Shown here: positions 40,757 through 57,005 of the stretch, one piece after another
How the letters are laid out: each line of letters begins with the position of its first letter
Numbering within the stretch: position 1 is the stretch's first letter
Origin: Azohydromonas caseinilytica
Lineage (GTDB): Bacteria; Pseudomonadota; Gammaproteobacteria; Burkholderiales; Burkholderiaceae_C
NCBI RefSeq assembly: GCF_012927045.1
Contig: NZ_JABBFW010000010.1
Location: 1-64,000, forward strand
Reading direction: 5' to 3'
DNA length: 64,000 nucleotides
Translations under genes and position numbers: made by a program
Notes under the pieces: model-generated
Seen by the model: the letters and a program-made list of their open reading frames with translations, nothing else
Told to the model about the DNA's origin: nothing
Database searches by the model: none

Positions 40757-42223
<1,467 letters not shown>

Positions 42224-42367
42224 GCGCTCCTCCGTCATGCAGGAAATTCTTGATGGCCGGCGTCGATGCACCCTCAACCGGGCGGCCCTTGCCGACGTCC
42301 TGTAGCCCCCGGCACGCGCGCTGCTCCACGGGCACGGGTTTCGTCACCCTCCCCATCCGGATTCGAC

Positions 42368-44083
42368 ATGCAGCTCGCCAGGGCCGGTTCCACCACATCG
42401 TTGCTGCGCTGCCTTAGCAATTGGCTCGCCTTGGGGCTGCGCCGGCCTGCGTTGCCGGCCCTCCTGCTGGGCGGCGCGCTGTGCGCCTGTGCCGGGCCCG
42501 GGACGGCGCCCGCTCCCGGGCCCGCGCCGGAGCCCGTGAGCGGCGGCGGCTGCGCACGCGTGCAAGGCTTGCGGCTGGCACCGGAGGACATCGGGCTGCA
42601 GACCCGCGGCGCGGCCGTGACCCGGGCCGCGCCGGCGGCGGCGCAGGAGCCCGGCTTCGGCCGCTTCGAGTACTGCGCGCTGCAGGGAGAAATCTTTCCC
42701 GTCGATGCCCAGGCGCCGCCGATCCGCTTCCAGGTCAATCTGCCGCAGCGCTGGAACGGCAAGGCGGTGCACATGGGCGGCAGCGGCTTCAACGGCACGG
42801 TCATCACCGGCACCGGGCCGATCAACATGGCACTGTTCACCTCGCCGCTGGCGCGGGGCTACGCCACCTTCGGCTCGGACGCCGGGCATCCGGCCACGGC
42901 GGCCGGCGCGGATTTCGCGCTCAACGACGAGGCCCTGCTGAACTTCGCCTGGCAGCACCTGAAGAAAACGCATGACGTGGCGCTGCAGCTCATCCGGCGC
43001 CATTACGACCAGCCGCCCCGGCGCCTGTATTTCGCCGGCGCCTCCACGGGGGGGCGCGAGGCCTTCACCGCGATCCAGCGCTTTCCCGCGGACTACGACG
43101 GCATCGTGGCCACGGCGCCGGCGCTGAACTTCGCCGGCCTGCGGCTCATGGGCGTGCGGCTGGGCCAGGCGAGCTATCGCGTTCCGGGCGGGTTCCTGCC
43201 GCCGGCCAAGCAGGTGCTGGTGCGCGACACGGCGCTGCGCAGCTGCGACCCGCTCGACGGCCTGACCGACGGCGTGGTCGCCGCCATCGACGCCTGCCGC
43301 CAGCGCGCGCCGGCGCTGCTGGCGGCGCTGCGCTGCCCGGGCGGCCAGGACGCCGGCGCGCACTGCCTCTCGGACGCACAGATCGCCACCGTGCGGCTGC
43401 TGCACGAGGGCTTCAGCTTCGGGCCCTACCTGGCCCATGGTCAGACCGGCTATGACGGCTACAACGTCCTGGCAGGCACCGACTTCTCCGGATCACTGGG
43501 CCTGGGCAACTCCCCCGTGCCCGCCAAGCCGCCCAGCATCGCGGCCAACGGCTACCTGTTCGCGACCGGCGACGCGTACATGAAGTACTTCATCGCCCGC
43601 GACCCGTCCTACGACGCCCTGAACTTCGACTTTGCCAACCCGGGGCCGCTGCGCGCGCGCATCAACGCGCTCTCGGCCGTGGTGGGCGCCATCGATCCGG
43701 AACTGCGGCCCTTCGCCGCGCGCGGCGGCAAGGTGATCCTGGCGCACGGCCTGGCCGACGAGGTGGTGAGCCCGAACCAGACCATTGGCTACTACCGCTC
43801 GCAGGTGGAGCAGCGCGGCCAGGCCGCCGTGGACGCGTTCATGCGCTTCTACACGGTGCCAGGCTTCCAGCATGGCGGCGGCACCTTCATCCCGTTCTGG
43901 GACCTGCTGGGCGCGCTCGACCGCTGGGTCGAACAAGGCATGGCGCCCGAGACGCTGGTCGCCACCGACGTGTCCGCTGGCGCCAACGGCCGCCAGCGCC
44001 CGATCTGCCGCTATCCCTTCATCGCCCGCTACAAGGGCAGCGGCGACCCGCAGCGCGCGGACAGTTTCAATTGCAGCCACTGA
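42368..44083 (+). CDS. Tannase/feruloyl esterase family protein lacking the CS-D-HC disulfide
   Basis: A 571-residue homologue of the two esterases. A long N-terminal signal with a lipobox-like LCAC at Cys39-41 suggests a lipoprotein. Catalytic Ser226 is in FAGASTGGREAF and His502 in PGFQHGGG. In the other two the residues beside Ser and His are Cys; here both are gone (Ala225, Gly503). Remaining family segments (GSDAGHP, DYDGIVATAPALN, ILAHGLADEVVSP) are normal. It is divergent from the GH1 gene. It is probably an active esterase with a different substrate. Confidence 0.88.
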   Translation: MQLARAGSTTSLLRCLSNWLALGLRRPALPALLLGGALCACAGPGTAPAPGPAPEPVSGGGCARVQGLRLAPEDIGLQTRGAAVTRAAPAAAQEPGFGRFEYCALQGEIFPVDAQAPPIRFQVNLPQRWNGKAVHMGGSGFNGTVITGTGPINMALFTSPLARGYATFGSDAGHPATAAGADFALNDEALLNFAWQHLKKTHDVALQLIRRHYDQPPRRLYFAGASTGGREAFTAIQRFPADYDGIVATAPALNFAGLRLMGVRLGQASYRVPGGFLPPAKQVLVRDTALRSCDPLDGLTDGVVAAIDACRQRAPALLAALRCPGGQDAGAHCLSDAQIATVRLLHEGFSFGPYLAHGQTGYDGYNVLAGTDFSGSLGLGNSPVPAKPPSIAANGYLFATGDAYMKYFIARDPSYDALNFDFANPGPLRARINALSAVVGAIDPELRPFAARGGKVILAHGLADEVVSPNQTIGYYRSQVEQRGQAAVDAFMRFYTVPGFQHGGGTFIPFWDLLGALDRWVEQGMAPETLVATDVSAGANGRQRPICRYPFIARYKGSGDPQRADSFNCSH

Positions 44084-44299: not shown

Positions 44300-45457
44300 A
44301 TGTCGAGGGTAGTTGCAGTCATGATGGCCGCCGCGCTGGTCGTCGCCGCCTGTGGAGGCGGGTCGCCGGGCGACGAAAGCATGGAAGTTCGCGACACGGG
44401 CGCCGTCAACGAGTCCGCCGCCGTGGCGGCCACGACCCTGGAGACGCCGGCGGAAGTCGCGGCCGGCGCCGCCTCGTTCAGCGATGAGCTGCTGAGCCTG
44501 GACAGCAGCCGCTGGCAGGCGGCGCAGTGGAACAACGGCAGCTATTTCCTCAACGGCTGGCATCCCGACCAGTTGGACTTCGCCGAGGGACGCCTGCGCC
44601 TCACGCTGGAAGCCGACGTGCTGGGGCTCACGGGCCTGAGCTGCGTCTCCGGCGAGTACCGGACGCTGAGCGCCTACGGCCACGGCCTGTACCAGGCCCG
44701 TCTGAAGGCTTCCGGCACGCCCGGCACGATCACGGGCTTCTTCACCTACACCGGCCCGGCCGAGGGCACGCAGCACGACGAGATCGACATCGAGATCAAG
44801 GGTGACGACCCCTGGAAGCTCCAGGTCAATTACTGGACCGACGACGCCGAGCACCCCACGGTGATCGACCTGGGCTTCGATGCCTCCGCGGGCTACCACG
44901 ACTACGCCTTCCGCTGGACGGGCGAGCGCATCCAGTGGTTCGTGGACGGCCGGCTCGTGCACGAGGAGGACGGGCGCCGCGGCCCGCTGCCGCAGGTGGC
45001 CGGCCGCCTCATGCTCAACCTATGGGGCGCCACGGGCGCCGAGCCCTGGAGCAGCAGCTACCAGGTGTCGGGCACGCCGTCCGAGGTCCTGGTGGAGCGC
45101 GTGGCCTTCACCGCGGAGCAGGACATGGCCTCGGCCACCGTGCCGGCCGTGTCCGTGGGCGCGCTGTACGGCCGCACCTATTGGGAAACCCGCAACAGCT
45201 GGCGCGCCGTCGCCACCATCGGCGTGCGCGACGCCGGCGGTGCCGCGGTGCCGGGCGCGGTGGTCAGCGGCAGCTTCAGCGGTGGCGCGTTGCAGAACTG
45301 CACCACGGACGGCAGCGGCGCATGCAGCGTTTCCAGCGGGCTCATCGGCAAGGGCCAAACGGGCACCACCTTCACCCTCGCCGGCCTCAGCGGCAGCGGC
45401 ATGAGCTATGACGCGGCGGGCAACGTGGCGGGCTCGGTGGTGATGCGGCGACCTTGA
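44300..45457 (+). CDS. GH16 beta-glucanase lipoprotein
   Basis: A 385-residue surface lipoprotein with lipobox Cys18 (VVAAC). The GH16 domain covers about 60-285; the catalytic motif E161-I-D163-I-E165 is in [12 protein letters not shown]-terminal ~90-residue Ig-like/carboxypeptidase-regulatory domain (VGVRD-like strands, GACSVSSG) follows. GGGAAGAAG precedes the ATG. Family members cut beta-1,3- or mixed-linkage glucans, or transfer them. It ends seven bases from the convergent kinase gene, opposite the glucan-type operon, and may trim its product. Confidence 0.9.
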
Positions 45458-45464
45458 TCGCGCC

Positions 45465-49010
<3,546 letters not shown>

Positions 49011-49026
49011 CACTGCCCCCGCCGCC

Positions 49027-50604
49027 TCATCGGCCCGGCATCACGCGCCAGGTGGCGGAATAGGGATAGGTGGGATTGGCGCAGGAGCCACAGCGTCCGC
49101 AGGACGGCTGGCGCACGCCCTCGACCTCCCGGTTCTCGCGCCAGGTGCGCCCGGGGTCCTGCGTGCGCGGCACGCCGAGCCGGCGCAGACTCTGCTCCTC
49201 GCGCTTGAAGCGCGGGCGGCCCTTGTCGTTGCCCGCGAAAGGATCGGCGCCGGCCATCTCCCACTGGCCGCCCTCGGACGGGCCCCACTTCAGCAGCTTG
49301 CCCTGCACCTTGTAGAGCAGCGCCTCCAGCATGATCCCGTTGTTGTTGGCCGTCTGCGTCTTGATCGGGCCCGAGCCGTTCTCGTAGAGGCCTTCGAAGT
49401 AGCCGCGTTTCGGATCGTAGGCCGTGGCGATGGCATCGAACAGCAGGTCCGTGTAGGGCGTGGGCCACAGCACCCACATGCCCAGCGCCGCCTTCAGCGA
49501 CACGGCCGCGGCGTCCGGCATGTGCTTGCCTGTGTCGGTAATGGTGTTCCACGGAAAGCCGTCGGAGTAGACCGTGTCGTAGACGAAGTACGGCGCCCGG
49601 TCGAGCTGGTGCTCGGTGCGCGCGGTCAGGATGCCGGTGACGCGGTGGCGGGCCTCCTGCGCCAGGTAGACGCGGTGGCCGAAGTCCGCCATCCAGCACT
49701 GGGAGTGGTAGAGATCGTCGTCGCGCCGGTCCAGCGCCTGGTCCCAGTTGAGCTCCAAAGCATCGAGCACGTAGCTCTCGGCCACCACGTAGTTGTGCTG
49801 GTTGGTCGTGCGCGGGTCGCGCGTGTCGTAGGGCACGGCCTGGCCGTAGATCTCCACCGTGGCGAAGGGCTCGGGCGCCAGCGCCTGCGAGGCGTCGAAG
49901 CCCCAGAGCTCGAAGCCCTTGGCGGCGTACTCCTCGTAACCCAGGCGCCCTTCCTGCACGTACTGCACCTGCTTGTTGTTGTCGAGCATGGCGCCGAACA
50001 TCGTGCCGGTGTAGTCCAGCACGCGGCGGAAGTCCAGGCGCAGCATGAAGCGGTCGATGGCGTTGGCATGCTCGGGGCGCCGCTCCTTGATGATCTTGAG
50101 CCAGACGAGCAGGCGGCCCATGTCGATGGCCGAGAAGCCGATCTCGCCGGGCTTGTTGGCGTAGTCCACCTTGGCCGCGGTCTGCGTGTGGTAGACCTTG
50201 TTGGGCATCTCGTTGCGGAACAGCTCCATGCGCTGCAGCGTGCCCATCAGCGCCTGGAAGCGGTTGTCGAACCTGTTCCTGTCGATCAGCCCCAGCTCGT
50301 TGGCCGCCAGCAGCGCGGCGATGTAGGAAGCGGTGTCCCACATCGTCGTCGAGGGGTAGTCCTGCACCGCGTTGACCAGGCCGGTCTGGGACTGGAAGTT
50401 GTTCTCGAAATAGAGCCAGGCGCGTTTGGCCACCTCCATCTCGCGCTCGGTGAGCGGTCCGCGGCGCGGCGCGGGCATGGTCGCGGGCGCGCTGTCCCAG
50501 CGCTCGGTGCGGTCGGGCAGCACGCTGCCGCAGCCCAGCAGCGAGGCCGTGGCCACCGCGGCCAGGGCGGCTCGGTACAGCCGGGCCGTCAGGCGTCTTT
50601 CCAT
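49027..50604 (-). CDS. DUF3131 glucoamylase-like lipoprotein with C-terminal Cys cluster
   Basis: A 525-residue protein with lipobox Cys25 (ASLLGC). The DUF3131 (alpha/alpha-toroid, glucoamylase-like) domain fills ~50-450 with WLYFENNFQSQTGLVNA and STTMWDTASYIAAL. A ~75-residue tail ends in PSCGRCGSCANPTYPYS, a C-x2-C-x2-C cluster absent from the sister protein. AAGGAGA precedes the ATG. It probably acts in the periplasm on the glucan made by the operon's glycosyltransferase, by cutting or modifying chains. The same fold occurs in cyclic glucan synthases. Confidence 0.88.
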   Translation of the reverse strand: MERRLTARLYRAALAAVATASLLGCGSVLPDRTERWDSAPATMPAPRRGPLTEREMEVAKRAWLYFENNFQSQTGLVNAVQDYPSTTMWDTASYIAALLAANELGLIDRNRFDNRFQALMGTLQRMELFRNEMPNKVYHTQTAAKVDYANKPGEIGFSAIDMGRLLVWLKIIKERRPEHANAIDRFMLRLDFRRVLDYTGTMFGAMLDNNKQVQYVQEGRLGYEEYAAKGFELWGFDASQALAPEPFATVEIYGQAVPYDTRDPRTTNQHNYVVAESYVLDALELNWDQALDRRDDDLYHSQCWMADFGHRVYLAQEARHRVTGILTARTEHQLDRAPYFVYDTVYSDGFPWNTITDTGKHMPDAAAVSLKAALGMWVLWPTPYTDLLFDAIATAYDPKRGYFEGLYENGSGPIKTQTANNNGIMLEALLYKVQGKLLKWGPSEGGQWEMAGADPFAGNDKGRPRFKREEQSLRRLGVPRTQDPGRTWRENREVEGVRQPSCGRCGSCANPTYPYSATWRVMPGR

Positions 50605-50653: not shown

Positions 50654-51976
50654 TCAGCGCACGCGCACGAGCGGTCCGCCCTGGATGTAGGCCAGGCTCT
50701 CCAGCACCACGGCGTTGGTGTTGGCCGTCAGGGCCTTGTTGGGCTCGCGGGTGCGCTCGTACAGACCGGCATACCAGCCGCGCTGCGGGTCGTGCAGCGG
50801 CGCCACGGCGGTGACGAGGCGGCGGGTGTAGTCGTTGTCCACCAGCGCATGCCAGCCGAAGGACGCCTTGACGCTGAGCGTGCGCAGCGCGTCCAGGTCT
50901 TCACCCGTGTCGGAGAGCGTGAACCAGTTGCGGCCGTTGGCGTGCACGGTGTTGTAGGCAAAGTAGGGCTTCTGGTCGAGGTGGTCCTCGGTCACGGCGG
51001 TGAGCTGGCCCGTCTTCTCGAAGCGACGCTGCTGGGCCAGGAACACGCGCCAGCCCAGCTCGCCGGAGTCGCGGTCCCAGCCCATCTCCAGGCCGTCGAG
51101 CACGTAGGGCTCGCTGAGCACGTAGTTGTGCGCGCCACTCTCGCGCTCGGTGCGCCGGTCATGCCCGATGCGCACGCCCTCCACGTCGCTCCACGCCAGC
51201 TGCTGCGTGTAGCTGGCCGCGCGCGGCGCATGCCGGCCGACGAGAGCCAGGGACTTGGACGCGTATTGCTCGTAGCCCAGGCGCCCTTCCTGCACGAGCT
51301 CGGCGCGGCCCTGCCCGTCCAGCCGCGCGCCCATGAACTCGCCCTCGGCCTGCAGTGCCGACAGGTCCAGGCGCCCCAGCACCGCGCGCACCGCCTGCGT
51401 GTGCTGCGGGTACTGCCACACCAGCACCTGCAGCGGCACCATCAGCCGCGCGATGTCGATGGCCGACCAACCGATGCCGCGCTCCGTGGGCTGGTTGGTG
51501 TAGTCCGTCATCTGCAGCGTGCTGGCGTTGTAGGCCTTGTTGGGCAGCTTGCCGTCGAACAGCGGCAGCTTCTGCAGCGAGCCCAGCGCGCGCGCGATGC
51601 GCTCATCGAACTCGCGCGCCTCGATCAGCTCCAGGCGCTGCGCCGAGATCACGCCCATGAGGTAGGAGCCCGTGTCCCACATCGTGGCGGAGGGGAACTT
51701 CTCCACCGAGAAGGCCAGGCCCGTGACCGGGTCGGTGTTGTTCTGGAAGTAGGTCCAGGCGATGCGGGCCCACTGGCGTTCCTGCTCGGTCAGCGGGCGG
51801 GCGCTGGCCCGCAGCGCCGCGGCGTCGAGCTGGCGGTCGGGCAGCTCCACGGCCGCGGAGGCCTGTGCCCAGCCGCCGCGCTGCTCCATCCAGATCACGA
51901 TGCCGAAGGCCACCAGCAGGGCCAGGATCGTGATGATGTAGCTGCGCGCATGCACCAGGTTGCGCCTGAAACTCAT
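50654..51976 (-). CDS. DUF3131 glucoamylase-like membrane protein
   Basis: A 440-residue paralogue of the lipoprotein at 49027. One N-terminal transmembrane helix (residues ~12-30: YIITILALLVAFGIVIWM) replaces the lipobox. The DUF3131 domain (~60-435) shares ARIAWTYFQNNTDPVTGLAF, SATMWDTGSYLMG and EGRLGYEQYASK with the sister protein, so the pair arose by duplication. AAGGAG precedes the ATG. It is held on the inner membrane next to the synthase gene product, while the sister may sit on a lipid anchor further out. Confidence 0.88.
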   Translation of the reverse strand: MSFRRNLVHARSYIITILALLVAFGIVIWMEQRGGWAQASAAVELPDRQLDAAALRASARPLTEQERQWARIAWTYFQNNTDPVTGLAFSVEKFPSATMWDTGSYLMGVISAQRLELIEAREFDERIARALGSLQKLPLFDGKLPNKAYNASTLQMTDYTNQPTERGIGWSAIDIARLMVPLQVLVWQYPQHTQAVRAVLGRLDLSALQAEGEFMGARLDGQGRAELVQEGRLGYEQYASKSLALVGRHAPRAASYTQQLAWSDVEGVRIGHDRRTERESGAHNYVLSEPYVLDGLEMGWDRDSGELGWRVFLAQQRRFEKTGQLTAVTEDHLDQKPYFAYNTVHANGRNWFTLSDTGEDLDALRTLSVKASFGWHALVDNDYTRRLVTAVAPLHDPQRGWYAGLYERTREPNKALTANTNAVVLESLAYIQGGPLVRVR

Positions 51977-52012: not shown

Positions 52013-53905
52013 TCAGAAGCCGTGTACCGGGGCGGCGGGCTGTCCCCGGGCGTCGTCAGGCTGGGAGGGATCGTCCTCGGGCTTCCACAGCGCGGCGCGG
52101 ATCATGGGCAGCATGGCGGCGATGTTGTAGACGCTCCACACCGAGATCACGATCAGCACCGGCAGCTCCTGCGTGGCGCCGAACACGAACACGCGCAGCC
52201 CCGCGACGACGAGCCCCAGCACCGTCAGCGCCACGATGGCGATCTGCGGCCACACCATGTGCAGGAAGTTGCCCTCCTGCCGGCTCTTAGGCGTGACGGG
52301 GAACTTGATCTTCTCGCCCTTGAGCACCGTCCACAGCGCGCGCAAATTGATCGAGAAGAACGACAGGTACGAGGCCTTGCCCTCCCAGGCGGCGATGCCC
52401 CAGGTGCCGAACATGAAGGCCAGCTCGTTGAGGATGACGAAGGGCAGGAAGTGCAGGTAGAACTCCATCGAGAACGCGCGCAGCGGCGAGATGCCGGTGA
52501 AGAGCGTGACGATGGGCGCCAGCAGGAACACCAGGTTCCACAGCCCGCCGAAGTAGGACCAGAACGTGCTCAGGTACATCAGCCGCTGCCGCAGCGACAT
52601 GCGGCCCTTGAACAGCGGGTTGTCGCGCAGCGCGATGTCGAGCGTGCCGCCGGCGTACTTGAAGCGCTGCGTGGCCCAGGCCAGCAGGTCCTGCGGCGAG
52701 AGCATCTTGGACTCGACCTGCGGATGCAGCACCGACTTCCAGCGCTGGTCGGGGTCGTTGTGCAGCACGATCGAGGTGTAGATGTCCTCGGAGACGTGGA
52801 ACTTGTAGGGCGTGAACTCGGTCTCGACGGCGATCTGGCCGCGCACGGCCTCCTCGAAGTCGCGCTTGATGTCGGCCTCGCGGATGCCCTTGGACAGTTT
52901 GCCGACCTGCTGCTCGACGCTGCTGCCGTAGGCGCGCAGCGCGGCCTGCATCACGGCCTCGCGGCGGTGGATGGACGCGGCACCGCAGCAGAACGCGGCA
53001 TTGGCCGGGTTGCGGCGGCGCAGGATCACGTCGTAGAACATCTTGGGGTCGTTGGCGAAGGGATCGCGTCCGACGGGCACCGGCCCCACCAGCCGCTCCA
53101 CCGCGCGCCCGATCCAGCGCCCCGGCGTGCCCAGGTGGCGCGCCAGCCAGTCCGGCAGCGGCCGGCCTTGCGGGATGTCGTAGAACCACTGTGGCGTCTG
53201 CACCCAGGCTATGTGCGGATCGCGGAAGTAGCCCAGCGTGTGCTCCAGGTAGGTCGGGAACAGCCGCGTGTCGGCATCGCAGATGACGATGAAGTCGCCG
53301 CTGGTGTGCTCCATCGCGTTGCGCAGGTTGCCGGCCTTGAAGCCGATGTTGTTGTCGCGCGTGATGTAGTGCACGCCCTCTTCCTGCGCCACCTGGCGCA
53401 TCAGGGGCCGGCGCCCGTCGTCGAGCACGTGGATGCGCAGGTCGATGGGATGCGGGTAGCGCATGGCTTTGGCGTCGCGGATGGACAGCCGCACCAGCTC
53501 CTCTTCCTCGTTGTAGGTGGTGATGAACACGTCCACCGCCACCGGCCGGTCCTGCTCCAGCGGCTGCTCCACGCATTCGTTGATGCCGTACGGCGGCGGC
53601 TGCATCGGCGGGTCGCGCGTGCTCCAGAGGTTGACGGCGAACAGCACCAGCCCGATGTACGACAGCGTCTCGGCCAGCGCCAGCGGGATGGCCAGCCACA
53701 GCGCCTCCATGTTGAGCGAGCCGGTCCAGCGCCACCAGATGTAGCGCGCGCCGAAGGCCAGCGCCATCACGACGAAGAACTGCCACAGCGACTCGATCAG
53801 CGGCGAGTGCGGCAGCGGCGGCGGCGGCCGCCGGTCCTCGAAGGCCTCGAAATAGAAGTGCGGCTTGCTGGTCTCCGGCATGGCTTGTTGTTGTTCAGTG
53901 CTCAA
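52013..53905 (-). CDS. Processive family-2 glycosyltransferase (glucan/cellulose-synthase-like)
   Basis: A 630-residue inner-membrane enzyme with two N-terminal and about five C-terminal helices around a GT2 domain (~120-400). Seen are DVFITTYNEE, Asp162 region HVLDDG, D210-A-D212 (DADTR), S372-E-D374 in place of TED, and Q413-R-F-K-Y417 in place of QxxRW. It resembles BcsA-, OpgH- and curdlan-synthase-type enzymes but has no PilZ domain. TTG 53905 has GAGG upstream and overlaps the kinase gene by 11 bases; ATG 53881 is the alternative. It is probably the polymerase and exporter of a beta-glucan. Confidence 0.88.
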   Translation of the reverse strand: MSTEQQQAMPETSKPHFYFEAFEDRRPPPPLPHSPLIESLWQFFVVMALAFGARYIWWRWTGSLNMEALWLAIPLALAETLSYIGLVLFAVNLWSTRDPPMQPPPYGINECVEQPLEQDRPVAVDVFITTYNEEEELVRLSIRDAKAMRYPHPIDLRIHVLDDGRRPLMRQVAQEEGVHYITRDNNIGFKAGNLRNAMEHTSGDFIVICDADTRLFPTYLEHTLGYFRDPHIAWVQTPQWFYDIPQGRPLPDWLARHLGTPGRWIGRAVERLVGPVPVGRDPFANDPKMFYDVILRRRNPANAAFCCGAASIHRREAVMQAALRAYGSSVEQQVGKLSKGIREADIKRDFEEAVRGQIAVETEFTPYKFHVSEDIYTSIVLHNDPDQRWKSVLHPQVESKMLSPQDLLAWATQRFKYAGGTLDIALRDNPLFKGRMSLRQRLMYLSTFWSYFGGLWNLVFLLAPIVTLFTGISPLRAFSMEFYLHFLPFVILNELAFMFGTWGIAAWEGKASYLSFFSINLRALWTVLKGEKIKFPVTPKSRQEGNFLHMVWPQIAIVALTVLGLVVAGLRVFVFGATQELPVLIVISVWSVYNIAAMLPMIRAALWKPEDDPSQPDDARGQPAAPVHGF

Positions 53906-54413
53906 GGTCTGGCCTCGCCTGGGGTTGGAGGAGCTTGGTCAGCACCAGCAGGTTGCCCCGTGGGCCGATGCGGTAGTCCACCCGGTCGAAGGACGCGCGC
54001 AGCAGGGCAAGACCCATGCCGCCTTCGGGCAAGCTGTCCAGCGCCAGCGGGTCGAAGTCGAAGGGGTCGTGCGCGGACGGCTGCAGCGCCGCCTCGGGGA
54101 TAGGCCGGCCCCGGTCGAACAGGCGCAGGCACCAGCGGTCGGGCTGCTCAGTCCACAGCAGCTGCACGCGGGCATCCCGCGCGTGGGCCTCGTAGCCATG
54201 GCGCACGATGTTGGACAGGGCCTCGGACAGGCCCAGGTCGATCTGTGCGGCCAAGGTCTCATCGCCGCGCTGCGCGGCCAGGGCGGCCACCTCGGCACAC
54301 ACGCGCGAAACCTCCTCCAGCCGCGCCGCGATGTCGGCGCGGTAGATCACGCGGGCGTCCGCCTCGGGCGGCTCCACGCCCGCGGGGTCCTGCGGCAAGG
54401 GGTCCGTGCCCAT
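53895..54413 (-). CDS. RsbW-like anti-sigma/serine kinase (HATPase)
   Basis: A 172-residue GHKL ATPase domain protein. The N-box is LGLSEALSNIVRHGYEAH and the G-box region LPEGGMGLALLRASFDRVDY; the ATP lid is short. Such kinases phosphorylate a STAS partner and release or bind a target. It lies 17 bases after the STAS gene and overlaps the glycosyltransferase gene, so partner switch and synthase are translationally linked. No sigma factor is near; the target could be another protein. Confidence 0.87.
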   Translation of the reverse strand: MGTDPLPQDPAGVEPPEADARVIYRADIAARLEEVSRVCAEVAALAAQRGDETLAAQIDLGLSEALSNIVRHGYEAHARDARVQLLWTEQPDRWCLRLFDRGRPIPEAALQPSAHDPFDFDPLALDSLPEGGMGLALLRASFDRVDYRIGPRGNLLVLTKLLQPQARPDLEH

Positions 54414-54430: not shown

Positions 54431-54763
54431 TCAGGCGGCCAGCGCCGCCGCCACGGAGTCGTGCAGCGGGAACACCCGATCCAGCCGCGTGAGCTTGAAC
54501 ACGCCCTGCACGGCGGCGCTGGCGCCCGCGATGGCGATGCTGCCGCGCCCGCCCATGCTCTTGAGCACCGACACCAGCACGCCCAGGCCACTGGAGTCGA
54601 TCATCTTCACCGCCTGCAGGTCCAGCACCAAGCGGGCCGTGGGACCGTCCTTGACCACGTCGAGCAGCGCGGTGCGGAAGGCGCTGGCCTGGGCCGCGTC
54701 CAGGCGCGGCGCCTGCACGGTGGCGACGATGGCCTCGTCGCGGCGATCGACATCGATGTTCAT
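54431..54763 (-). CDS. STAS-domain anti-sigma-factor antagonist
   Basis: A 110-residue SpoIIAA/RsbV-type protein. The phosphorylatable serine motif is MIDSSGLGVLV with Ser57/Ser58. GGAGGT precedes ATG 54763, which overlaps the phosphatase stop by four bases (ATGA). When dephosphorylated by the upstream PP2C protein it should bind the RsbW-like kinase encoded just downstream. Confidence 0.93.
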   Translation of the reverse strand: MNIDVDRRDEAIVATVQAPRLDAAQASAFRTALLDVVKDGPTARLVLDLQAVKMIDSSGLGVLVSVLKSMGGRGSIAIAGASAAVQGVFKLTRLDRVFPLHDSVAAALAA

Positions 54764-56034
54764 GCTCTGGTTACCTCCACAACCGTTGAGGCCGCGCCGG
54801 CGCCGACATGCTCGATCAGCAGCATCGAGATGTCGTCGCGCAGCTCGGCCGAATCGCCGCCTGCCCAGCGGCGGATTTCCGCCTCGAACTCGCGCACCGT
54901 ATCCTGGGCCGGGCAGGCGGCCGTGCGCGACAGAAAGGTCTTGAGCCGCTCCAGGCCGTAGGGCTCGCCCTGGAGGTCCTCGCATTCGGTGACGCCGTCG
55001 GTGTAGCAGCACAGCCGCGCACCGGGCGGCAGCGTGAGCTCGATGTCGTGGTAGGCCACATCGTCGAACAGGCCCACCGGCAGGTCACCGTCCTCGGCCA
55101 CCTCGTGCACCCGGCCGTCGGGCAATACCACCACTGGCAGCGTGTGGCCGGCGCGCACCAGGCGCAGGCTGCCGTTGCGCTGGTCGAGCAGCCCGAACAC
55201 GCAGGTCAGGTAGCTGGTGCCGATGCCCGCCTCCAGCAGCCGCGCGTTGAGCGACTGCACCACCGCGGCCGGCGAGGCCGCGCTCGCCGAGCGCGCGGCC
55301 TGCACGATGCCGCCCGAGAACTGCGGGCTGAGCATCTGCGTCACGATCATGGCCACCATGGCCGAGGCCACGCCGTGGCCGGCGACGTCGAAGTTGTAGA
55401 ACGCCACCCGTTGCGCGTCGAAGCCGAAGCAGTTGAGCGCGTCACCCGAGACGAAGCGCGAGGGCAGGAACAGCCACGCGAAGCGCGTGCGGCCGTCGTC
55501 GAAGGTTTCCTGCGGCAGCAGGCTCTTCTGGAAGGCGCCGGCGGCGTCCACGTCGCGCTGGATCTGCTGGTAAGCCGCCTGCAGCTCGCGGTTGCGCTCC
55601 TCCAGCCCGGCCTGCAGCTCCAGCAGGCGCTGGCCCGCGTGCAGCCGCACCGCCAACTCGTCGAAGTCCACCGGCTTGCGCAGGAAGTCGTCGGCACCGG
55701 CGGCCAGGCCTTCGATCATGTCCTCGCGCTTGTCGCGGGAGGACATGAGGATGAAGTAGACGTAGCGCGCACCGGGCCGCGCGCGCAGGGCGCGGCACAG
55801 GGCCAGCCCGTCCATGCCCTGCATGATCCAGTCGCTCACCACCAGGTCCACCGCCTCGTGCTCCATGCGCGCCAGGGCCTCCTCGCCGCTGGCGGCCTCG
55901 CAGACCTGGTGGCCCAGCCGCGTCAGCGCCCGGTGCACCACCAGGCGCTGCATCGGCTGGTCATCGACCACCATCACGCGCAGCGTGCCGGCCCGGCGCA
56001 GCGGCGGGGTGAGCGTCACAGGTTGATGTTCCAT
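54760..56034 (-). CDS. Response regulator with PP2C (SpoIIE/RsbU-type) phosphatase output
   Basis: A 424-residue two-domain protein. The receiver (residues ~15-130: VMVVDDQPMQRLVV, then VVSDWIMQGMDG, LRKPVDFDEL) carries the phospho-Asp in SDW. A coiled linker (~135-175) leads to a PP2C domain (~190-415) with FDVAGHGVASAMVAM and CCYTDGVTE metal-binding Asp residues. ATG 56034 is chosen because upstream residues lack sense; it overlaps the barrel gene by 19 bases. It probably takes phosphate from the operon's hybrid kinase HPt and dephosphorylates the STAS protein. Confidence 0.9.
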   Translation of the reverse strand: MEHQPVTLTPPLRRAGTLRVMVVDDQPMQRLVVHRALTRLGHQVCEAASGEEALARMEHEAVDLVVSDWIMQGMDGLALCRALRARPGARYVYFILMSSRDKREDMIEGLAAGADDFLRKPVDFDELAVRLHAGQRLLELQAGLEERNRELQAAYQQIQRDVDAAGAFQKSLLPQETFDDGRTRFAWLFLPSRFVSGDALNCFGFDAQRVAFYNFDVAGHGVASAMVAMIVTQMLSPQFSGGIVQAARSASAASPAAVVQSLNARLLEAGIGTSYLTCVFGLLDQRNGSLRLVRAGHTLPVVVLPDGRVHEVAEDGDLPVGLFDDVAYHDIELTLPPGARLCCYTDGVTECEDLQGEPYGLERLKTFLSRTAACPAQDTVREFEAEIRRWAGGDSAELRDDISMLLIEHVGAGAASTVVEVTRA

Positions 56035-57005
56035 GTGATCGCGACGGAGATGCTGCCGTCGCGCAAGCGACCGGTGCCCGGTGCTCGCTCGCGCCAGGGG
56101 AAGCGGTTGCCGGAATAGTTGGCGTACTGCACCACCAGCCCGCCGCTGCTCCAGTCGGCATAGCCGAAGCTGTAGGTGAAGTCCGGGTCCCAGGGCTGCT
56201 GCTGGCGGCGCACCGGATAACCCACGAGGTCGAGCGCGGCAAACCAGTATTGCCGGTACACATAGCGGCAACCCAGGCTCGCGGACTTTTTGCCGACCTG
56301 GCGGGCGCCCAGCTCCGCGTCGGCATAGCGGTGGGTGTACCGGAGCGCCGTGCCGCATCCGACGCTGTGCTGCTCGCTCAGCGGCACCCAGTCGCGCAGT
56401 GTCGGCGTGAGCGGGAACTTGTAGCCCAGGCTCCAACTGCCCTCGTCGAAGCGCGTGACGCGCTCGCCGCGGGCACGGTCCGGATGGAAGCGGTTGCCGC
56501 CGTCGTTGCTGTAGAAGAAGCTGAAGGTATAGGGCCGCCAGTCCTCAAAGCCGAAGGCGTAGGTGAAATCCGGGTTCCAGGGCCGCTGCTCGGACGGGTT
56601 GAGGTAGCGCAGCAGGTTCGTGCGCACGAACCAGCCTTCCAGCGGCATGTAGCGCAGGCCCAGCTGCAGCGTCGGCGAGCTCGGGACCTCGCCCTGGCTC
56701 TGGAAACCGAGATTGGAGAAGCCATCGGCCTTCAACGGTGCGTCCAGCGCCAGGCGCACGCTCAACAGGTGCGGCGCCGTGCCGTTGAAGAGCTGATGCA
56801 CCGGCAGGGCAAAGGAGCGCTGCCAGCCTTCGCGCCAGTTCGTTGGCTCGCCCGGCGGCGGATCGGGCGGCGGCGGCGCGCCGCGATGGGGCGCGTAGGT
56901 CTGGGGGGAGGTCTGGGCACAGAGCGTGACGGGCAGCGCCAGCGCCAGCGCCAGCCACGGCCGGCACAGGCTGTTGCGACGGATCTCGACACTTGTTCTT
57001 GTCAC
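56016..57005 (-). CDS. Outer-membrane beta-barrel protein with internal repeats
   Basis: A 329-residue exported protein. A signal peptide (SLCRPWLALALALPVTLCA) is followed by a proline-rich stretch (~42-53) and a beta-rich region of alternating aromatic residues. Two ~35-residue units, near 142-177 and 271-304, share PW[ND]PDFTY-FG--DW and a GNRF end. GTG 57005 has an AGGGGG SD. There is no C-terminal Phe; it ends in Asn-Ile-Asn-Leu. In the operon it could be the outer-membrane path or anchor for the polysaccharide. Family not recognised. Confidence 0.75.
   Translation of the reverse strand: MTRTSVEIRRNSLCRPWLALALALPVTLCAQTSPQTYAPHRGAPPPPDPPPGEPTNWREGWQRSFALPVHQLFNGTAPHLLSVRLALDAPLKADGFSNLGFQSQGEVPSSPTLQLGLRYMPLEGWFVRTNLLRYLNPSEQRPWNPDFTYAFGFEDWRPYTFSFFYSNDGGNRFHPDRARGERVTRFDEGSWSLGYKFPLTPTLRDWVPLSEQHSVGCGTALRYTHRYADAELGARQVGKKSASLGCRYVYRQYWFAALDLVGYPVRRQQQPWDPDFTYSFGYADWSSGGLVVQYANYSGNRFPWRERAPGTGRLRDGSISVAITWNINL

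Follow-up and report, generated by a model that had tools for sequence, protein, structure and literature searches.

The closest described system is the cellulose synthase BcsA, in which the Trp of the QxxRW motif stacks on the acceptor glucose and the Asp of the ED motif acts as the base. According to extracts of the same source, QxxRW is fully conserved across the surveyed bacterial beta-glucan synthases, and the curdlan synthase CrdS has it with Trp344 (PMC6821405). BgsA, the mixed-linkage glucan synthase of Sinorhizobium, has a BcsA-like core with the FxVTxK motif and without PilZ, and its C-terminal tail is described in the extract seen as binding cyclic di-GMP (c-di-GMP) (PMC5567048). 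The 'Orphan' NdvB of Pseudomonas (GH17-GT2) is likewise a BcsA-like GT2 without PilZ, with an atypical CED motif, a fused GH17 domain and a retained QRFRW (extracts of PMC10237404). The cyclic glucan synthases (CGS) combine GT84, a GH189-type domain and GH94 in one giant polypeptide whose soluble domains are cytoplasmic (extracts of PMC10901819). What sets the linkage made by a GT2 beta-glucan synthase remains to be settled, and those compared or described rest on QxxRW. Here, we describe a synthase gene in a 64,000-nucleotide stretch of Azohydromonas caseinilytica (assembly GCF_012927045.1, contig NZ_JABBFW010000010.1, positions 1 to 64,000; the window hereafter) that has SED and QRFKY in place of TED and QxxRW, a new variant of processive GT2 synthases accompanied by a partner family, DUF3131, for which no function was found in the literature.

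An earlier note on this DNA, made from the letters alone, had placed SED and QRFKY between 52620 and 52800, and translation together with alignment to BcsA confirmed both there (Table 1). In a phmmer search of solved proteins, the synthase matched E. coli BcsA (E 3.3e-39) and R. sphaeroides BcsA (E 3.2e-31), with the TED and QRIRW of E. coli BcsA opposite its SED and QRFKY. It has in common with BcsA (PDB 7lby and 9b8v from E. coli, 4hg6 and 4p00 from R. sphaeroides) the GT-A fold, the interface and channel helices and the motifs DDG, DxD (here DAD), ED, QTP and FxVTxK, all retained in the alignment of 91 rows described below, and BcsA is its best match in sequence and in fold. The structure modelling proposed by the earlier note was run with AlphaFold2 and gave a predicted local distance difference test score (pLDDT) of 83.1 (41 rows), the top Foldseek match of the model being E. 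coli BcsA (E 7.5e-26, TMq 0.69); by our reading of this model, helices long enough to span the membrane flank the catalytic domain, two ahead of it and at least four beyond it. The broad features of processive GT2 polysaccharide synthases (GT2 fold, DDG, DxD, ED, FxVTxK and membrane helices) are present, and judged by its sequence and model the protein is a processive-type GT2 synthase. A degenerate gene copy was ruled out, since the donor, base and gating motifs are intact. The open reading frame begins with TTG, although the N-termini of relatives agree better with an in-frame ATG at 53879-53881.

Unlike BcsA, the relatives of this protein carry SED and QR[FYL]KY and are mostly about 600-650 amino acids long, and the window synthase scores 222.5 bits against the NCBIfam CelA model TIGR03030, below the cut-off of 699.1. 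The earlier note was also right that no PilZ domain is present: a Pfam search of the synthase gave no PilZ match, and only 96 residues lie between FPVTPK and the end of the protein, a stretch in which the model places two long helices, so that there is no room for one. BcsB (PF03170) had no match in the host genome (98 contigs, 99.86% complete).

Relatives were collected by two routes. A tblastn search against plasmids gave 17 (53-63% identity, 88-99% query coverage), after which identity dropped to BcsA at about 28%, and 10 of these relatives were fetched; when one genome per species was scanned, at least 407 came up, from which the best 80 were retained. These 80 were picked by the peptide patterns NxGxKAGN and VQTPQWF, so QRFKY did not select them. 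Adding the ten plasmid loci and the window brings the set to 91 loci, in which a few species occur twice. SED was found in all 91 rows, QRFKY in 87 and QRYKY in the other four, and local mutation or reading error as the origin of the motif was ruled out by its being common to every row. Of 398 genomes sampled from the phylum, at least 15, the host's own included, contained a member, a lower bound because no more than three candidates were scored in each genome. The 14 further members all have SED, with QRFKY in 11, QRYKY in one and QRLKY in two, and they are cleanly split by score (569 bits or more) from the remaining GT2 matches, none of which exceeds 142 bits.

Cellulose-synthase-type controls were read at the same positions, and TED together with QxxRW was found in 42 of 44 rows, some of which are one protein fetched twice. 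QxxRW was also found in each of six named GT2 synthases, which include what is probably BgsA of S. meliloti (QRERW), and TED was seen in four of the six. The Lys-Tyr pair occurs in none of the 44 rows and none of the six synthases. The earlier note would have been contradicted by QRFKY being common in known synthases with usual products, and among those examined it was not found. Two BcsA-like control rows from the host's order (L029 and L031) showed neither TED nor QxxRW by motif search, and the former has AEDLHT and RKTDWGRG.

The phylogeny of the motif among GT2 synthases, also suggested in the earlier note, was run as a tree of 91 rows. It placed 48 members on one side of a branch with a value of 100 in the Shimodaira-Hasegawa-like approximate likelihood ratio test (SH-aLRT); the tree was made by a quick method, with a root for drawing only, and curdlan synthase was not among its rows. 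Five BcsA-like rows form the sister group (SH-aLRT 98), a placement by the quick method that is not reliable. In a set of 48 relatives, identity to the window protein is 54-72%. A probable copy of BgsA (L172), identified from its pSymB position and neighbours, differs from the clade members in having TED, QRERW and an adjoining RND/HlyD-type adaptor gene, and lies outside the clade branch. We are highly confident that the QRFKY synthases form a separate clade, one that appears to be under different control.

All three substitutions (R to K, W to Y and T to S) are chemically conservative, and the donor-site and gating motifs are retained, as would be expected if Lys and Tyr were drift fixed in one lineage of ordinary cellulose-type synthases in which only the neighbourhood differs. 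We consider such drift improbable, as both residues are invariant in a clade with record titles from several phyla, neighbourhood partners differ consistently, and the survey of bacterial beta-glucan synthases, as far as its extracts go, reports full conservation of QxxRW (PMC6821405). The change of acceptor motif alone does not show a different product. A further aromatic residue, a Trp after QTP[QH], was found in all 48 tree members. His, Phe or Tyr is the usual residue there in the controls, with Trp in one Bcs-type row. The Trp is partly pre-selected, VQTPQWF having been one of the two patterns that chose the 80 genome loci. From its place in the sequence, this Trp is a possible compensating residue.

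Members of the group have been found in many bacteria. Besides a few other phyla, the record titles of the relatives cover Alpha-, Beta-, Gamma- and Deltaproteobacteria, and they include Sphaerotilus, Thiothrix, Leucothrix, Crenothrix, Enterobacterales, sphingomonads and Rhodobacterales, as well as metagenome-assembled genomes labelled Kapaibacterium, Ignavibacteria and Sericytochromatia, for which the phylum is that of the label alone. Sphaerotilus, Thiothrix, Leucothrix and Crenothrix are sheath-forming or filamentous. Among the matches listed, the nearest relative is that of Azohydromonas australica (88%), and named relatives of the host's kind also exist in Sphaerotilus, Ramlibacter and Noviherbaspirillum; a full-length member was found in none of 149 other genomes sampled from the host's order. 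A blastn search of one Enterobacter member against E. coli genomes gave no match. In the literature searched, no mention of QRFKY was found, and the group, although widespread, is apparently undescribed.

In the window, the synthase is the fifth of eight genes on the minus strand, separated by short gaps or overlaps, in the order 329-amino-acid protein, receiver-PP2C phosphatase, STAS protein, HATPase, synthase, two DUF3131 proteins and CHASE-PAS hybrid kinase (Table 1).

Table 1. Coordinates of the synthase, its motifs and the neighbouring genes in the window.
Feature	Position	Strand	Basis and remarks
GH1 beta-glucosidase-type gene, near synthase operon	40757-42277	-	464 bits
Tannase/feruloyl esterase-type gene, near synthase operon	42266-44083	+	404 bits
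GH16 glucanase-type gene, HDEIDIEI motif, lipoprotein-like N-terminus	44300-45457	+	PF00722, 96.2 bits
CHASE-PAS hybrid histidine kinase with receiver and Hpt domains	45465-49013	-	Pfam; 13 bases after second DUF3131 gene
Second DUF3131 protein	49027-50604	-	PF11329, 422 bits
First DUF3131 protein	50654-51976	-	PF11329, 465 bits
GT2 synthase, 630 amino acids, TTG start	52013-53905	-	Pfam GT2 domains
FPVTPK (FxVTxK gating-loop motif, retained)	52286-52303	-	F 91, V 82, T 90, K 91 of 91 rows
QRFKY, residues 413-417 (Q413-Y417; ATQRFKYAGG), position of QxxRW	52655-52669	-	Translation and BcsA alignment
SED, residues 372-374 (S372-E373-D374; VSEDIYTS), position of TED	52784-52792	-	Translation and BcsA alignment
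HATPase_c_2 protein, RsbW/SpoIIAB-like, anti-sigma kinase type	53895-54413	-	Pfam, 80.2 bits
STAS protein, anti-sigma factor antagonist type	54431-54766	-	Pfam STAS, 63.4 bits; TIGR00377, 60.3 bits, above cut-off
Receiver domain and PP2C (SpoIIE) phosphatase	54760-56040	-	Pfam SpoIIE 139.4, Response_reg 92.1 bits; start provisional
Protein without Pfam family, 329 amino acids	56016-57005	-	No Pfam match

The neighbourhood was surveyed with hidden Markov models (HMMs) made from the window and annotated plasmid proteins and applied to the 91 loci with an E threshold of 1e-5. They were built from 10 of the 91 loci, several of them from one or two sequences. No flank is longer than 10 kb and contig ends truncate some of them, which makes the absence of a neighbour uncertain, and weak matches of the histidine-kinase, PP2C, OpgC and GH16 models may include unrelated genes; Pfam confirmation of OpgC, GH2, GH16 and BcsS covered a few proteins. 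DUF3131 was found in 82 of the 91 loci, and most loci have one to four such genes; in 55, one follows the synthase on its own strand at a distance of no more than 300 bases. The HATPase was found in 83 loci, STAS in 82 and PP2C in 82, and all three together in 80. A histidine kinase matched in 62 loci (57 at 200 bits or more), an OpgC/acyltransferase-3 type protein in 46 (36 at that score), GH2 in 41 (39), GH16 in 18 (nine), with an E-x-D-type active-site motif in 17 of the 18, and BcsS in nine. The 329-residue protein of the window, possibly an outer-membrane barrel, is related to an Enterobacterales hypothetical protein encoded beside opgC (hhalign E 2.1e-68), and one of the two was found in 41 loci.

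PP2C, STAS and HATPase genes encoded together constitute a partner-switch gene set. The STAS protein has a DSSG motif resembling the phosphosite of SpoIIAA, and RsbW models match the HATPase protein only far below their cut-offs. The hybrid kinase may signal to the receiver-PP2C phosphatase, which would dephosphorylate the STAS protein and so oppose the HATPase kinase; the free STAS protein, or its kinase, would then gate the synthase or its expression in place of PilZ/c-di-GMP control. That the switch controls this glucan pathway is, in our estimate, rather likely. It may instead act on a sigma factor or other regulator, and hence on transcription, as HsbR/HsbA does on FlgM and RpoS, and we regard this as a serious but less than even possibility. 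The switch parts resemble anti-sigma systems, and extracts on HsbR-HsbA name FlgM, RpoS and a diguanylate cyclase as its targets (PMC6482189), whereas the presence of all three switch genes near the synthase in 80 of 91 loci fits a local target, with which a sigma factor is still compatible. Since sigma factors or a diguanylate cyclase can be the targets of such switches, as HsbR-HsbA shows, direct action of this one on the synthase is a guess. A literature search on a partner switch combined with such a synthase, OpgC or exopolysaccharide locus gave, by titles and the starts of abstracts, nothing on this locus.

Both DUF3131 proteins of the window score far above the Pfam gathering score of 20.3. 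The AlphaFold2 model of the first (pLDDT 94.7, predicted template modelling score 0.90) consists of an N-terminal helix and a helical barrel, and the helix, residues 3-33, is a probable membrane anchor in this model. A DUF3131 profile run against the sequences of solved structures gave 8wy1 (E 3.8e-6), then Cgs 8rf9 and 8rf0 (E 0.0042), then a pilin (0.022), and in one hhalign pairing of 58 DUF3131 with eight CGS-like sequences, residues 67-157 aligned at E 7.8e-8. Eight of ten weak Pfam DUF3131 matches sit in open frames of 1771-2956 amino acids with CGS motifs. By VIA-align, the top structure was again 8wy1, the CGS cyclization domain (Z 35.0, 350 residues, 3.0 A), followed at Z 32.2 to 23.8 by three Bacteroides 'putative glucoamylases', which we take to be of GH144 type, Cgs and beta-1,2-glucanases; other (alpha/alpha)6 enzymes reached Z 22.1 at most among the rows shown. 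The DUF3131 fold is thus closer to the SGL clan (GH144, GH162, GH189, GH192-194) than to other (alpha/alpha)6 enzymes.

According to extracts, the SGL clan is defined by a conserved Glu/Phe/Tyr set, E239, F286 and Y367 of XcSGL (PMC12102758), and the catalytic pair of TiCGS is E1356 and E1442 (PMC10834661). Two Glu residues of DUF3131 resemble the TiCGS pair in motif and spacing, E230 (of 197 rows, 176 with E and 12 with D) and E330 (139 with E and 34 with D), and their being its counterparts is a guess from sequence. DUF3131 looks like an unrecognised relative of the clan as far as three papers go, because DUF terms are absent from them: the main texts of the 2025 clan survey (PMC12102758) and of the GH189 paper (PMC10834661) have no word starting with DUF, and the sole such word in a 2025 review (PMC11842490) is an author's name. 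In the parts of the literature that mention DUF3131, no function was found, and a literature search did not find PF11329. In Novosphingobium profundi (L126:12155-14878, plus strand), a DUF3131 match of about 908 amino acids directly follows the synthase and scores like two DUF3131 domains.

These observations suggest a pathway in which a BcsA-like, membrane-embedded GT2 polymerase would elongate a beta-glucan from UDP-glucose and extrude the chain. In its acceptor site, Tyr may still stack on the chain end and Lys may still help to hold UDP, a weaker version of the Arg-Trp contacts, and altered holding of the acceptor could lead to a product other than plain cellulose. The DUF3131 enzymes, apparently membrane-anchored and with nearest solved relatives that cleave or transfer beta-1,2-glucan, would act on the emerging chain outside the membrane by trimming, releasing or transglycosylating it, as BcsZ does for cellulose, and an OpgC/acyltransferase-type enzyme would acylate the glucan in about half of the relatives. 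A modified-acceptor BcsA-like synthase making a beta-glucan other than cellulose, with DUF3131 processing and partner-switch control, is the best explanation as a whole, to which we give an even chance of being correct. A beta-1,2-linked or beta-1,2-containing glucan as its product is a tentative proposal, somewhat short of even. The likeness to CGS lies in the pairing of a processive glycosyltransferase with a GH189-like (alpha/alpha)6 domain; unlike CGS, the window has a 630-amino-acid BcsA-type GT2 and separate DUF3131 open reading frames with an N-terminal helix, and a CGS-like frame at one locus (L044) reads SHD and RHRW. A still more specific version, an undescribed exopolysaccharide pathway with a secreted beta-1,2-linked or other non-cellulose glucan, DUF3131 as a new periplasmic family of GH189-like transglycosylases or hydrolases, OpgC acylation in some lineages and a direct switch in place of c-di-GMP, is possible but doubtful.

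The earlier note had proposed that product or control may differ from cellulose and curdlan, and this is partly supported. The control very probably differs from the PilZ type, in view of the missing PilZ domain and the conserved switch, whose target is inferred; the product probably differs from cellulose, for which the support is indirect and comes from the separate clade, the failure to find BcsB and the likeness of the DUF3131 fold to beta-1,2-glucan enzymes.

Several observations weigh against the proposed pathway or its beta-1,2-glucan product. A GH16 gene lies beside the window operon, convergent with the hybrid-kinase gene, their ends 8 bases apart, and GH16 enzymes are usually active on beta-1,3/1,4-glucans. 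The host genome has two OpgG copies and a CGS elsewhere, which would make a third route to beta-1,2-glucan superfluous. All nine loci without DUF3131 have BcsS, and eight of them also have a GH16 match. Neither STAS nor HATPase was found in eight of the 91 loci, some of these contigs ending nearby. BcsZ is among the Foldseek matches of the DUF3131 model (TMq 0.40-0.43) and a beta-1,3-1,4-glucanase is in the VIA-align list (Z 20.4), and (alpha/alpha)6 barrels act on many glycans, so that the fold does not fix the substrate. An hhalign comparison of the C-terminal half of DUF3131 gave E 0.39-0.94, no confirmation that the GH189/GH144 catalytic residues are retained, and whole-length global alignment puts other residues at the catalytic positions. 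In the literature searched, no product was found reported for any clade member.

The GH16 gene of the window, BcsS in nine loci and BcsZ among the Foldseek matches, together with the cellulose synthases being the nearest solved synthases and with GH16 in 18 loci, fit a beta-1,4 or mixed (1,3;1,4)-beta-glucan, with DUF3131 as a BcsZ-like trimming hydrolase whose fold likeness reflects distant ancestry only. We consider this somewhat unlikely, as QxxRW is present both in 42 of the 44 cellulose-type control rows and in the probable mixed-linkage synthase BgsA, DUF3131 is nearer to beta-1,2-glucan enzymes and their relatives (Z 24-35) than to others, and the host shows no BcsB match. The nine loci without DUF3131 are mostly from sphingomonads (L052, L073, L090, L092, L094, L106, L115, L120 and L130), and seven of them encode a SPOR-domain protein; they may show a shift of product or processing. 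Their BcsS is not recognisably the product of the 329-residue gene of the window (hhalign E 0.49).

A natural clade with just two acceptor-site residues changed offers ready material for studying acceptor binding by mutation. Should DUF3131 prove to act on beta-1,2-glucan, an activity could be assigned to a Pfam family so far without a known function, and the Pantoea loci, some records of which read 'cellulose synthase catalytic subunit', would need renaming. A Klebsiella pneumoniae locus would then likewise need a new name; its gene set, by printed description alone, matches that of the Enterobacterales loci here, and the part of that description available lists genes, with no function found in it.

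Among the remaining glycan genes of the host, the window GH16 scored weakly with the neighbourhood GH16 HMM (37 bits), and the same model gave no match in the A. australica locus (L062). The single GH94 match of the host genome lies elsewhere, in a frame of 2921 amino acids.

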